Virus record (IMG/VR): IMGVR_UViG_3300031825_000378
Coordinates: 1-38,255 of that record
Source of the DNA: a virus
Reading direction: 5' to 3' (one strand)
Length of the DNA: 38,255 nt
Shown: piece after piece, positions 27,304-32,204 of the stretch
How the letters are laid out: every line of letters starts with the position of its first letter
Position numbering within the stretch: the stretch's first letter is position 1
Program-made: the position numbers and the translations under genes
The notes under the pieces: generated by a model
Told to the model about the DNA's origin: nothing
The model's database searches: none
What the model saw: the letters and a program-made list of their open reading frames with translations, nothing else

Positions 27304-27464
27304 GCGACCTCCCCCGCGCTTAGATCCAAACCCAGCGCGCGCTTAGCCATGACCAGGACGGTGATGGCATAACGCTTACCGCCCTTACGCTGATGCTCTT
27401 GCAGGATCTTTAGCGCCCAGCGGCGCTCGCTCGGCACTGAAGTTGCTTCCGGCAGGTCGATCAT
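27300..27464 (-). CDS. 54-aa hypothetical protein tiled between dnaC-like gene and rusA
   Basis: A basic 54-residue protein (start MIDLPEATSVPSERRWALKI, end LGLDLSAGEVA). Its ATG overlaps the loader stop and its TGA overlaps the rusA ATG, both as ATGA. The precise tiling supports translation. No family recognised. Confidence 0.65.
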   Translation of the reverse strand: MIDLPEATSVPSERRWALKILQEHQRKGGKRYAITVLVMAKRALGLDLSAGEVA

Positions 27465-28258
27465 GCTTGCCTCCGATAGCTGGGCCAGTCGAACACGACC
27501 ATCCGGCCGCCGCCCTCTCGCAGACGATCGATGACGCGCTCGCCCAGGTACTCGGTCAGCGGCTCCTTGGCCAGATTGCTGATCACGATCGTCGGCTTGA
27601 GCCCTTGATATCGGCCGTTGATAACCTCGAACAGGTACATCTTTTCCGTCTCGCTGCCGAACTGCACGCCGACCTCATCGAGAACCAGCAGATCCGGATC
27701 GACGAGGTTCTTGATGGCATCGGCCTCGGTCAGCTCAGAGCCTTTTCGATACGTCTCCTTGATGGACCGAACGGCCCCAATAACCGACGAGAACACCGCC
27801 ACGCGGTCAAGCGCGATGACTTCGTGGCAGACGCCGACGGCCAGGTGAGTCTTGCCCGCTCCCACTCCGCCGCAAAAGATCAGGCTCTGGCCGGTCTTTT
27901 GGCATTCAGCGAAGTTCGCCGCGAAGTCCTTGGCCACCGCCAGCGCTTTGGCCGGCCCTTCGGCATGAGACACGAAGTTGTCCAGCGTCTTGTCCGCGAA
28001 CCGAGGCGGGATGGCGGCGCGTCCCAGCAACTCTCTTACGCGGCGCTGCCGCAACTCAACCTGCCATTTGGCGTGAGCCTCAGCCGCTTCGCGCTCCTGC
28101 TGCTGCTTGATGCAAACGGGACAGCCAGACGTGTGACCCATGTACGTGATCGCGGTGTAGTCGCCATGCTGCTCGCAGCGCTGGCTGGATTGCTCAGTCT
28201 TAAAACGTGCCATCGGCTGCAACCCCGGCGTGGTAATCCTGCTCGTTGAAGTTTCCAT
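27461..28258 (-). CDS. DnaC-like helicase loader ATPase
   Basis: A 265-aa AAA+ protein. The N-terminus has a Cys/His cluster (RCEQHGDYTAI ... GCPVCIKQ) that may bind zinc. Walker A is FCGGVGAGKTHLAVG, Walker B LLVLDEVG, and sensor-1 region IVISNLAKEPL. It would load the host replicative helicase at the phage origin together with the initiator just upstream. The ATG at 28258 has GGAG; a second ATG at 28213 is possible. It overlaps the initiator by 59 nt. Confidence 0.9.
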   Translation of the reverse strand: METSTSRITTPGLQPMARFKTEQSSQRCEQHGDYTAITYMGHTSGCPVCIKQQQEREAAEAHAKWQVELRQRRVRELLGRAAIPPRFADKTLDNFVSHAEGPAKALAVAKDFAANFAECQKTGQSLIFCGGVGAGKTHLAVGVCHEVIALDRVAVFSSVIGAVRSIKETYRKGSELTEADAIKNLVDPDLLVLDEVGVQFGSETEKMYLFEVINGRYQGLKPTIVISNLAKEPLTEYLGERVIDRLREGGGRMVVFDWPSYRRQA

Positions 28259-29270
28259 GCGCTGTCACTCCATTCGGTTTCGTTCGGGTTTGGGCCCGGG
28301 GCGGGTATAGGCCTTGGTAGCCGCTGGCAATGCTGTTGGCGATCACCGCGCTCGGCTGATGGCCTTCTGCGCGCAGGTCCGCCAGCTGCTTCAGCTGCAG
28401 CTTGGCGGCCTCTTGCGTCACCGGCTTCTTGCGGGCCTTCCGGTCGGCAACCCAGATGACCCAGTCTTCACGGTCAAGCCAGTCCGGCAGATCGATCGCT
28501 GAGGCATCGAATCCGTTCCCCCGCTTGCGGGGGTTAGGGGGTGTTTGTTTTTCTTCTTTATCTTTATCTTCTTCTTTATCTTTATCTTTCGTAGTTGCTA
28601 CGGTATCTACGCCAACTACGGGTATGGACTCGAACTCGCTCTCTGGTAGGGAAGACAAGAACGTCAAGGTCTGCTCGTAGGTGATCAGGTCTTTGGAATT
28701 TGTCTTAGAAATCAGAGAGTTCAGCGCGGCACTGCGGTTGAACCACTCGCCATTCAGGCGGCTCGATTCGAAGAATTTGTGAATGGCCCTTTCGTTTCGC
28801 TCGTCGGTTTTAAGCGTGGCGAGCAGGACGAATTTCGATGCGGAACCTGTCTGTAGATCCTTCACGCGGGACCAAGGATTCCTACTAATTCCTATCTTCA
28901 CTACGTCGTTATCCGTAGAAGCTACGTAGTAGATGTAGTTGCATCCGGACGACTTCCCCTTTCCATCGGCACCGTCTTCCCTACTCGGCTGCCGGCGCTC
29001 CCAGCCAGTGAGGCGTTTCCCATCCAGGACGCGGCCTTGCATAGCCTGTGTGATTGCGCACACAGCCTCATCGCTCTCGTTCAGCGCGCTCGCAATGTCC
29101 TCTTCCAGAACGTCGTAAGTACCGCGCTCGCTGTTCTGGGACGCCGAAGCAAGAATTTGTAGCCACACAGCTTGCACGGTCGATATCGACTGCCCGGAAG
29201 CACGCGCGATCGTTCTCCATTTAGGATCGTTCGGCATGTCGTGCCATAGCCGGAACCATTCATTCGCCAT
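28200..29270 (-). CDS. replication initiator with inserted GIY-YIG domain
   Basis: A 356-aa protein. The N-terminal about 95 residues (MANEWFRLWHDMPNDPKWRT to LTGWERRQP) are the winged-helix part of phage replication proteins that act as lambda O/DnaD-like initiators. Residues about 108-190 form a T5orf172-type GIY-YIG domain (NYIYYVASTDNDVVKIGISR, SRVKDLQTGS, ERAIHKFFES, GEWF). A charged linker (KDKDKEEDKDKEEK) leads to a C-terminal DnaD-like helical part (WLDREDWVIWVADRKARKKP). GGAG precedes the ATG. The domain insertion is unusual; the initiator role rests on the N-terminus and the loader neighbour. Confidence 0.8.
   Translation of the reverse strand: MANEWFRLWHDMPNDPKWRTIARASGQSISTVQAVWLQILASASQNSERGTYDVLEEDIASALNESDEAVCAITQAMQGRVLDGKRLTGWERRQPSREDGADGKGKSSGCNYIYYVASTDNDVVKIGISRNPWSRVKDLQTGSASKFVLLATLKTDERNERAIHKFFESSRLNGEWFNRSAALNSLISKTNSKDLITYEQTLTFLSSLPESEFESIPVVGVDTVATTKDKDKEEDKDKEEKQTPPNPRKRGNGFDASAIDLPDWLDREDWVIWVADRKARKKPVTQEAAKLQLKQLADLRAEGHQPSAVIANSIASGYQGLYPPRAQTRTKPNGVTAHGNFNEQDYHAGVAADGTF
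28542..28620. other. candidate replication origin: A+T-rich tract and CTACG iterons
   Basis: A 48-bp pyrimidine-rich, A+T-rich tract with repeated TCTTTAT units (28542-28589) abuts an inverted CGTAG and three CTACG motifs in direct 9-bp spacing (28598, 28607, 28616). It lies inside the initiator gene, as the lambda origin does inside O. A second cluster of CTACG/CGTAG lies at 28901-28929. The function is inferred. Confidence 0.4.
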
Positions 29271-29724
29271 GGCGGACTCCGTACACGGTCATGTAGCCAA
29301 TCTCGGCCTCAAGAGGCCAGAGCCCCAGCACAATCAGGGACAAGCGGGTTTCTTGAAATCCAGCCTCCCACAGCGCCACCTTCTCTTCGTAGCTGGCACC
29401 GGTTTGGTTCTGATCGATATAAGCGTGGCACGTAACGCAGCCCCACGCGGTGGCCCAGTCGTGCGCCTTCAGCCATCCGGCCTTCCCATGACGCGACTGG
29501 TTTGAGTGACACGCGACCACGGTTGCGGCGTCACCGCAGCACACATCAGGCACCTGAAGCTTGCAGGGCATCCCCTTGGCCAGCTTCAACAGCGCCAGGT
29601 TGCGGTACATCGTCTTGGTTGAGCGTACGGTCTTGCGCTTCGCGGGCAGCTTGGCCGTGCCGCGCTTCATCGGCGCCTTCGCGCGCAGCGGTGTCGACCG
29701 CTTGAGGGCAGAGTTGCGGATCAT
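29260..29724 (-). CDS. YbcO-like nuclease, DUF1364 family
   Basis: A 154-aa protein with a basic N-terminus and the DUF1364 core: PCKLQVPDVCCGDAATVVAC, then HSNQSRHGKAGW and CVTCHAYIDQ, including the Cys and His ligands of this HNH-type fold. The family acts in phage recombination in place of NinB/NinG-type proteins. Its ATG overlaps the DUF1367 stop (ATGA) and its stop lies inside the initiator start region. Confidence 0.8.
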   Translation of the reverse strand: MIRNSALKRSTPLRAKAPMKRGTAKLPAKRKTVRSTKTMYRNLALLKLAKGMPCKLQVPDVCCGDAATVVACHSNQSRHGKAGWLKAHDWATAWGCVTCHAYIDQNQTGASYEEKVALWEAGFQETRLSLIVLGLWPLEAEIGYMTVYGVRHGE

Positions 29725-30242
29725 TCTCCAAATCCTTGCAAGACGAGTTCCAGCATTTCGCTGGCACGCGCGGCCGGCAGATGCGGCCACATAGTTTTCT
29801 GGGCGTGCGCCGTGCGCAGGAAGGCAACAGCGTCCTCGTGGAATTGCTCCATGTCGGCCTGCTCCAGCTTTGCGTAGCTGATTGACCGCGGCACGGGGAT
29901 GACACCGCCCTTCGGGCCCGGGTACCAGTCCACGAAGCCACTACCGGTCTTCAGCCAGGCGCGGAAGGCTTCGAACTCCTCAAATCGGTCTTGTGCCTCG
30001 AAGAGGGCCGACTCCAGCGCCATGTGCTTGCGGTGGTACCACCCAGTACGCTCTTTGTGCGTAGTGATCGACAGCATCTCGCCCGGCTCAAGCCGAACCA
30101 GTTGATTCCACAGCCGGCGCCATTGTTTGCGCCCGCGCTCACCCAGGCCGTCGACCATGCCGAAGATCATTCGGCGTGCGGCTTCCTTTTCCTGCTCGGA
30201 GACTTGGACAGGCTGCTGACGAACCAGGGTGATATCGGCCAT
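29721..30242 (-). CDS. DUF1367-like protein
   Basis: A 173-aa protein with the DUF1367 features: a YHRKHMALESALFEAQDRFE region, FRAWLKTGSGF and VPRSISYAKLEQADMEQFHE. The family lies next to YbcO/NinB-type recombination genes in many lambdoid phages; function unknown. AGGGA lies before the ATG inside the CII-like gene's end. Confidence 0.75.
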   Translation of the reverse strand: MADITLVRQQPVQVSEQEKEAARRMIFGMVDGLGERGRKQWRRLWNQLVRLEPGEMLSITTHKERTGWYHRKHMALESALFEAQDRFEEFEAFRAWLKTGSGFVDWYPGPKGGVIPVPRSISYAKLEQADMEQFHEDAVAFLRTAHAQKTMWPHLPAARASEMLELVLQGFGE

Positions 30243-30763: not shown

Positions 30764-31027
30764 TCATGCCGCAGTCGCCTCGTGTGCTCGACGCTGGCGT
30801 TTCGGCTTGCGAAGCACGTCCCATCGAAAGCTGGGCAACAGCTCTTCGCAGCGCACGCCGGTGGCCTCCTCGATCAGCGGACAGTGCTCGGAGGGGAGCG
30901 GACGCTTGAGATTCACCCACTCATGAACGCTGACCGGCGTCACCTTGAGAATGCGAGCGAGGGCGGATTGCCCGCCGGCTATGTCGCATGCTCGGGCTAG
31001 GGATTCGTGTCGTTTTTTCATGTCCAT
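30764..31027 (-). CDS. Cro repressor, YdaS-like
   Basis: An 87-aa helix-turn-helix protein of the YdaS/Cro type: ARACDIAGGQSALARILKVT followed by VSVHEWVNLKRPLPSEHCPL. It is the first gene of the leftward arm, facing CI across three operators. The ATG at 31027 falls at the predicted transcription start of PR, with no RBS, so the message is probably leaderless; an ATG at 31021 is also in frame. Confidence 0.85.
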   Translation of the reverse strand: MDMKKRHESLARACDIAGGQSALARILKVTPVSVHEWVNLKRPLPSEHCPLIEEATGVRCEELLPSFRWDVLRKPKRQRRAHEATAA

Positions 31028-31095: not shown

Positions 31096-31112
31096 GTTAG
31101 GCAATGCTTAAT
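31096..31112. promoter_or_regulatory. operator OR3
   Basis: GTTAGGCAATGCTTAAT matches the palindrome at 12 of 17 positions and covers the CI start codon. Binding here would shut off CI synthesis. Confidence 0.65.
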
Positions 31113-32204
31113 GGAACTGACCTCGGAGCTGCCATTAAGGCAGCCATTGAAAAGAAGATCGCCAGCGGAGCCGTCGCTTCGCAGGCCGCGATCGCACGTC
31201 ATTTCAATGTCAGGCCACCTTCCATCCACGACTGGATAAAGAAGGGCTCGATCTCCAAAGACAAACTCCCGGAGCTGTGGCGCTATTTCTCGGACGTCGT
31301 GGGCCCGGAACATTGGGGCCTAAAGTCTTGGCCAGACATGGGGTCGTCCATAGCATCAGAGTCGGCGCCTCAGCACAAGCCGTGGCCTTTCAAGACGATC
31401 CCCGAAGACCAGATCCATGAGCTACCGGAGTCCCAGCTAAGCGCCCTTGAGGGCGCAATCCAGCTGGCTATCGCCCAGATGAGGCTCGGGATCCAGGTTT
31501 CAGCGCAACCGCTCGCTACGCCGACCCGAGTTTCTGTACCGATTCGTTCGCACAAGCCGGGCGGCCTAGTCGATATGGACCATGCCGACGATCCATTCCC
31601 CATGCGAATCCAAGGCCTCCCCCCTGCCCCGTGGGAAGGCGGAAATACAACACACCAGGCAGAAGCCAATCCCAAGATCCGGATCAGCACCCAAACTGGG
31701 GTGATCGCAAATGTCGGCCCAGGCGAACCTTACGCAGCGAACGACAAGTTCGACAAGGTGCCAGAGATGGCCGACGTGCGGCTTGCCGCCGGCGATGGCA
31801 TCGAGAACCACATCGAGGAACAGACTGGCGTGATGCACTTCCGCCGCTCGTTCCTGCGCGCAGTGGGTGCAGATGCCGGGAAAGCCAGGGTTGTCTACGC
31901 CAAAGGCGATAGCATGGAGCCCATCATTCGTGATGGAGCTGCGCTGCTAGTCGTGCCGAACGAGGATCTGACCGTACGCGACCTCGCCGCGGGCGGCGTC
32001 TACGCCATCAACTACGACGGCAAGATGATCGTGAAGACGGTGACGCGGGATCGCCTGACGAAGCAATGGGTGGCGCGGTCATTCAATCCGGCTTACCCCG
32101 ACATCCCACTTGAGAATGGCACGCCTGTGCGCGTGCTGGGCCAGGTTGTCTGGTCTGGCGCCAGGTTGCGGGATGATGAGGCGGGACAGTGGGTGAGGTC
32201 CTGA
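31104..32204 (+). CDS. CI prophage repressor, S24 autocleaving
   Basis: A 366-aa repressor. Residues about 18-50 are a helix-turn-helix (GAVASQAAIARHFNVRPPSI). The C-terminal S24/LexA domain holds Ser270 in YAKGDSMEPII and Lys311 in MIVKTV, with a probable cleavage bond Ala229-Gly230 in RLAAGDG. RecA-stimulated self-cleavage would induce the prophage. It is long for a CI (lambda 237 aa) because of an about 130-residue linker. The ATG at 31104 lies within OR3, with no RBS. Confidence 0.9.
   Translation: MLNGTDLGAAIKAAIEKKIASGAVASQAAIARHFNVRPPSIHDWIKKGSISKDKLPELWRYFSDVVGPEHWGLKSWPDMGSSIASESAPQHKPWPFKTIPEDQIHELPESQLSALEGAIQLAIAQMRLGIQVSAQPLATPTRVSVPIRSHKPGGLVDMDHADDPFPMRIQGLPPAPWEGGNTTHQAEANPKIRISTQTGVIANVGPGEPYAANDKFDKVPEMADVRLAAGDGIENHIEEQTGVMHFRRSFLRAVGADAGKARVVYAKGDSMEPIIRDGAALLVVPNEDLTVRDLAAGGVYAINYDGKMIVKTVTRDRLTKQWVARSFNPAYPDIPLENGTPVRVLGQVVWSGARLRDDEAGQWVRS

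Follow-up and report, generated by a model that had tools for sequence, protein, structure and literature searches.

A nuclease fold set into the middle of a phage replication initiator raises the question as to what such a domain does there: whether it cuts DNA, is carried along by its neighbours, or takes part in recognising the origin. The case at hand is an open reading frame (ORF) at 28200..29270 on the minus strand of virus record IMGVR_UViG_3300031825_000378, the whole of which (38,255 bases) was analysed and is called the window here. This ORF is predicted to encode the phage's own replication initiator, and along it lie a winged-helix-like N domain, a GIY-YIG domain, a charged linker and an O-like C domain. 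What is new here is a predicted origin inside the gene whose repeats switch with the GIY-YIG domain; no earlier description of such a domain within the initiator of the phage itself was recognised in the partial literature searched, which lay mostly outside subscription journals. The modules and the adjoining loader gene are as follows.

28200..29270 (-), replication initiator gene with three modules (ORF of 356 amino acids; Pfam and PHROG profiles, AlphaFold2 model)
28971..29270 (-), N-terminal domain, residues 1-100, predicted to be winged-helix-like (phrog_3729/phrog_21423; predicted local distance difference test score, pLDDT, ~95)
28698..28946 (-), GIY-YIG domain of the MUG113/T5orf172 type, residues 109-191, with R135 and E160 as putative catalytic residues (profiles, model, family alignment)
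28629..28694 (-), two-helix tail after the GIY domain, residues 193-214, common to the L290 initiator described below (model and alignment)
28311..28505 (-), C-terminal O-like domain, residues 256-320, presumed contact for the helicase loader (phrog_678; AlphaFold2)
27461..28258 (-), gene for a DnaC-like helicase loader, downstream of the initiator (phrog_50, E 4.2e-71; PF01695)

Residues 1-102 match PHROG initiator families (phrog_3729, 4.6e-39), giving an N domain of initiator type, and residues 225-351 match the O-like initiator family phrog_678 (2.1e-26); an O-like C domain with an adjoining loader gene is the arrangement of phage replisome-organiser or O-like initiators. AlphaFold2 (45 aligned sequences) predicts three separately folded parts, with confident N and GIY domains and a low-confidence linker at residues 221-249. 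The Foldseek neighbours of the N domain are mostly winged-helix regulators, every match being weak. The full-length model had no PDB match with E <= 0.001, PDB sequence searches returned nothing convincing, no NCBIfam profile matched, and Rfam had no match over 28000-29800.

A sequence-only reading of this DNA had placed a GIY-YIG (T5orf172-like) domain within the initiator at 28690-28960, and the profiles bear this out, with borders that agree to a few residues. Pfam MUG113 matches at residues 124-178 (E 2e-11, 44.7 bits vs a cut-off of 22.3) and T5orf172 at residues 112-179 (3e-7, 31.3 bits vs 20), both above cut-off; the generic GIY-YIG model stays below its own cut-off in the initiator (E 0.15). 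Modelled alone, the GIY part reaches a mean pLDDT of 91.6. Foldseek gave no match for this model at E 0.001 or better, and the best PDB rows on a second look were GIY-YIG proteins (Slx1, 6seh, Z 5.1; the I-TevI catalytic domain, 1mk0, Z 3.4), so that the structure prediction proposed as a check puts GIY-YIG structures first, all with modest scores. Lysine (K125) occupies the presumed place of the YIG tyrosine.

The initiator gene carries a predicted origin, similar to that of lambda O, within its own coding DNA:

28901..28929 (no strand assigned), repeat cluster A, four CGTAG/CTACG sites in the DNA encoding the GIY motif (NYIYYV...) (0/2000 synonymous-codon shuffles)
28590..28620 (no strand assigned), repeat cluster B, four CGTAG/CTACG sites with spacings of 9, 9 and 8 base pairs (bp) (0/2000 synonymous-codon shuffles)
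28545..28586 (-), purine/A-rich stretch (GATAAA/GAAGAA), a predicted unwinding element present in alleles with and without the domain
28518..28533 (-), inverted repeat CCCCCGC-AA-GCGGGGG, an element of the C module found in many domain-less relatives that share the C part, some copies being imperfect

Clusters A and B are the sole places in the 38-kb window with four CGTAG/CTACG starts in 45 bp, and the initiator gene holds nine CGTAG sites in all. The excess, tested against 2000 synonymous-codon shuffles, goes beyond codon constraint in each of the nine records tested: the start of the GIY part holds 4-7 CGTAG sites (shuffle mean 0.5-2.0; reached in 0-10 of the 2000) and the linker likewise 4-7 (mean 0.4-0.9; reached in 0-9), and the N-domain DNA holds none in the same test. 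Repeats and an A-rich stretch inside the gene are, at the level of sequence, what would be expected of an O-like initiator. The same elements bear on base composition. The sequence-only reading had called the GIY coding DNA more A+T-rich than its neighbours, which holds for the stretch 28690-28960 against the window (G+C 0.498 vs 0.613) and against the N part (0.590) and C part (0.626), but the lowest value belongs to the linker (28513-28632, 0.458). The A+T richness of both is largely due to the CGTAG and GATAAA repeats, and recent capture was therefore dropped as its main account.

Relatives show that the repeat type follows the domain. Many N-domain relatives occur among viral and genome contigs, most without the GIY-YIG domain; among distinct alleles found by protein similarity, 57 of 65 lack it and 8 carry it, so that the outcome named as refuting the sequence-only reading, a domain present in every relative, did not occur. 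The nine domain-bearing records are the window, L002-L007, L013 (also genome locus L105) and L118. Genome surveys added few matches: 4 of 268 genomes in one family, with an N part or a GIY part only; 1 of 394 in one order, an already known case; and 2 of 399 in another order, with the N part only. Each of the 57 distinct domain-less alleles has three or more GTCAC/GTGAC sites within 45 bp and no more than one CGTAG/CTACG, and each of the eight distinct domain-bearing alleles has four or more CGTAG and no more than one GTCAC. These counts cover loci found by protein similarity, deduplicated by their first 450 nucleotides (nt), with the short loci L095 and L288 dropped; loci from a scan for GTCACG were kept out because that scan selected for GTCACG, and with them 106 of 106 domain-less alleles have GTCAC clusters. 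That scan hit 120 places, 117 of them in ORFs of the N family, none with a GIY domain, and three without an ORF call. Among the matches listed by another scan, for CGTAG repeated three times at a spacing of 9 bp, no relevant initiator turned up. The clusters also lie at different places in the two allele types, at about nt 312-374 (inside the GIY DNA) and 623-694 with the domain, and typically at about nt 128-165 (inside the N-domain DNA) and 386-420 without it, with an A-rich GATAAA/GATACA run upstream of the C-part coding stretch in most alleles shown of either kind. The switch of repeats that accompanies the domain supports the suggestion that it is used at the origin. The widespread domain-less family (L011-L104), with two intragenic GTCACG clusters and GATAAA runs, by itself yields predicted origins for many prophages.

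How the domain and its repeats travel can be read from one block shared with a relative:

28555..29275 (-), putative mobile specificity cassette of 721 bp, which phage record L002 carries in identical form; it begins 5 bp ahead of the start codon and reaches the A-rich stretch (alignment)

The 60-bp bins adjoining this block are mostly ~70-98% identical between the window and L002, and no other exact run exceeds 65 bp. Identity over 721 bp between divergent flanks indicates that the N-GIY-repeat block moves as a cassette, and its boundaries imply that a transfer takes the recognition half along with the predicted origin and leaves the C half paired with the loader already present. In alignments with L027 and L017, homology is lost at the block and returns close to the A-rich run. 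Compared with domain-less relatives, both the linker and the repeats in it are replaced, and the N part has been swapped as well, which speaks against the plain insertion into an initiator proposed earlier, and equally against a simple homing-type insertion that interrupts its target site. The window's C part is also joined to domain-less N parts (L011, L014, L017, L022, L027, L032, L088 and others) and to N parts outside the N profile (L008-L010); the initiator gene is thus a mosaic of modules. The L118 locus is truncated at its start, and a number of loci are close to the end of a contig.

The association reaches beyond this N family. When viral contigs were scanned for CGTAG directly beside the A-rich stretch, eight contigs were returned, all eight hits lying in GIY-bearing initiator ORFs: seven known ones and L290, a second initiator family with a different N domain, a GIY-YIG domain and CGTAG repeats. 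Three domain-less relatives of the L290 N domain (L410-L412) have no CGTAG clusters and carry other sequences at that place. A third N family is that of p19 of Myxococcus phage Mx8 (NC_003085), the top viral structure match of the full-length initiator model. Like the window protein, it has an N initiator domain, a GIY-YIG domain, a linker with repeats, a C part and a DnaC-like gene next to it; unlike it, its N family is unrelated or very distant, its repeats are of CGTGG type and its G+C is high. Its CCGTGGACG-type repeats lie directly after the GIY domain, together with a hexamer repeat. The 7-mer redundancy there is 16 vs a mean of 3.5 (2/2000 shuffles), and CGTGG, a motif chosen after looking, occurs 3 times vs a mean of 0.77 (reached in 22/2000); seven domain-less relatives of the p19 N part have no such repeat cluster. 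The best match of p19 is phrog_8130, of unknown function in PHROGs.

The catalytic residues give a mixed picture. With roles assigned by family alignment, the putative catalytic R135 is present in all 12 aligned rows, and the putative catalytic E160 is retained in the domain-bearing alleles other than L006, which has V there, and L013, which has I, these being two of the eight distinct ones; the window, L003-L005, L007, L118 and L290 keep both. L006 and L013 still retain the repeats, the A-rich stretch and the N and C parts. As two alleles have lost the glutamate, catalysis seems not to be needed in every allele. The capture from a homing nuclease and the nicking proposed in the sequence-only reading find no support. 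In close pairs the GIY part is under strong purifying selection, with ratios of nonsynonymous to synonymous change (dN/dS) of 0.024 (L004/L005) and 0.042 (L007/L118), so the domain matters as a protein in most alleles. We considered free decay after loss of the glutamate, but the ratio of GIY to N protein change is just somewhat higher in pairs that include L006 or L013, which weakens that idea.

From these patterns we infer that the repeats would be bound, and the GIY-YIG domain may well, on an evenly balanced judgement, be part of the surface that reads them, without catalysis being necessary. More tentatively, the GIY-YIG fold could be a repeat reader in up to three initiator families, with its array partly in the DNA of its own active-site motif, the N-GIY-repeat block a swappable cassette for origin specificity, and catalysis optional. 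The domain, alone or together with the winged-helix N domain, would bind the CGTAG repeats of both clusters, the first within the coding DNA of the GIY core and the second beside the A-rich stretch; binding would open that stretch and the C domain would recruit the DnaC-like loader. Exchange of the N-GIY-repeat block would alter origin specificity and leave the C domain matched to the resident loader. Several points weigh against this. On the N tree, one weakly supported branch (81/66) has all eight domain-bearing N parts on the same side, so that the eight of eight may be a single historical event, and because domain and repeats adjoin in the DNA, linkage alone could hold them together. CGTAG with another N domain comes from one contig (L290), picked up by a search in which CGTAG was itself the criterion, and cluster A of this contig is weak, the GIY start holding one site. 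The L006/L013 pairs show somewhat faster change of the GIY protein (dN/dS ~0.3-0.6 where computable, with synonymous sites near saturation), as if partly released. A comparison of the N domains counts in favour: the residues that distinguish the two allele types best are 47-55 and 66, whose DNA in domain-less alleles holds the repeats of those alleles, and 96, and none of them is in the long helix 29-45. Residues 47-55 could nevertheless be a DNA-contacting wing, so that the N domain may be the reader.

This last point leads to an alternative that we consider rather unlikely, in which the N domain reads the repeats and the GIY domain is a linked passenger or spacer, kept for the origin repeats in its coding DNA. 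The GIY domain and cluster A do occupy the same DNA, the same N family goes with GTCACG repeats in domain-less alleles, and lambda O binds repeats within its own gene (PMC5043065). CGTAG nevertheless accompanies the domain across two N families, with a related repeat in a third, close relatives show purifying selection on the GIY protein sequence beyond the cluster, and the GIY fold is confidently predicted. Improbable too, in our judgement, is an active nuclease brought to origins by the initiator, which would nick its own origin to start replication or switch its mode, or cut the origins of competitors. Retention of both catalytic residues in most alleles and the strong purification of close pairs fit such an enzyme, but the glutamate is gone in two of eight alleles that still look like working initiators, the presumed tyrosine position holds lysine, and a CGTAG-directed active nuclease would endanger its own gene with its nine sites. 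The precedent for cutting, and the known system that comes nearest to the present one, is Odn (Gp88) of Vibrio phage ICP1, which joins T5orf172 to a RepA_N domain, cuts the origin of a satellite and requires one glutamate (PMC8263062). Least probable, and by our estimate a long shot, is selfish spread of homing type, in which initiator alleles that lack the domain would be cut by it and receive a copy of the block, the cassette thereby passing through the replication module. The 721-bp block has been transferred into otherwise divergent phages, and T5orf172 proteins are described as putative homing nucleases near essential phage genes (PMC10448857); yet ordinary recombination accounts for the block, and the nine domain-bearing records found, the window included, do not make the domain common in these collections. 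These three alternatives overlap in part.

If the GIY-YIG domain does read the repeats, a nuclease fold would have been turned into an origin reader, and the origin specificity of a phage could be swapped in one recombination step with the loader contact kept. Such a swap could let a phage escape interference by a resident origin; in lambda, replication is blocked by ectopic copies of its origin (PMC4488673). GTCACG repeats together with an A-rich stretch also allow intragenic origins to be predicted from sequence for a widespread initiator family, and the two clean allele types form a test pair for the co-evolution of initiator and origin.

With homing endonucleases of the GIY-YIG class such as I-TevI, the window domain has in common a predicted fold (with the modest structural scores given above) and a CNNNG-like motif, but it is set between two initiator domains and has lysine at the presumed YIG tyrosine position. 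CNNNG is the cleavage motif of the I-TevI GIY domain (PMC4065259); CGTAG, CTACG and CGTGG all fit it, yet so does one 5-mer in 16. With Odn and the Odn-like proteins of coliphages Inny, Muut and Mt1B1_P17 (PMC8263062 and PMC10448857) the window protein shares a T5orf172-type GIY-YIG domain, an initiator-type DNA-binding domain and a relation to iterons. It differs in occupying the initiator slot beside its own loader, and so is not a separate gene of Odn type (one match to the query in the window), in retaining the initiator C domain and in having origin repeats of its own that change with the domain. The RepA_N domain had no match among the Pfam hits, and the N domain belongs to another initiator family. 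Lambda O is not known to have a nuclease-fold domain. The layout is otherwise that of lambda O and oriLambda, where the origin lies within the initiator gene, the O-binding repeats are followed by an A+T-rich region, and the helicase-loading gene is next; unlike the 19-bp inverted repeats of lambda, the window has two clusters of short repeats, one of them in GIY coding DNA (PMC5043065).

Some candidate parallels were rejected. IFTN4 gp59, from the Bordetella avium phages and annotated 'HNH endonuclease', suggested an HNH-fused initiator, but it has initiator sequence and no HNH motif by eye; the name on these initiators (L132:2516-3346) is likely a transferred one. The 'DnaD-like helicase loader' of mycobacteriophage phi1_186018 is a small GIY protein in which no initiator N domain was found. 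In actinophages, GIY-YIG endonuclease genes are annotated beside the initiator gene (H178 and H148; Gordonia phage Pytheas and Mycobacterium phage Kevin1). The L410-L412 initiators have a TGTAACGTTTCA-like sequence directly before the GATACA run, possibly repeats of their own.

Around the initiator gene, the loader ORF as listed (27461-28258) overlaps the initiator end by 59 bases, and its real start may be a later ATG near 28213. Just upstream, 29260-29790 (-) encodes a YbcO-like putative nuclease (PF07102; phrog_131, HNH endonuclease), and 29721-30242 (-) a protein matching DUF1367 (PF07105) and also NinB/Orf recombination mediators (phrog_319). Further on, a YdaS-like Cro-type gene at 30764-31027 (-) is divergent from an S24 repressor at 31104-32204 (+), the N part of which weakly resembles YdaS.
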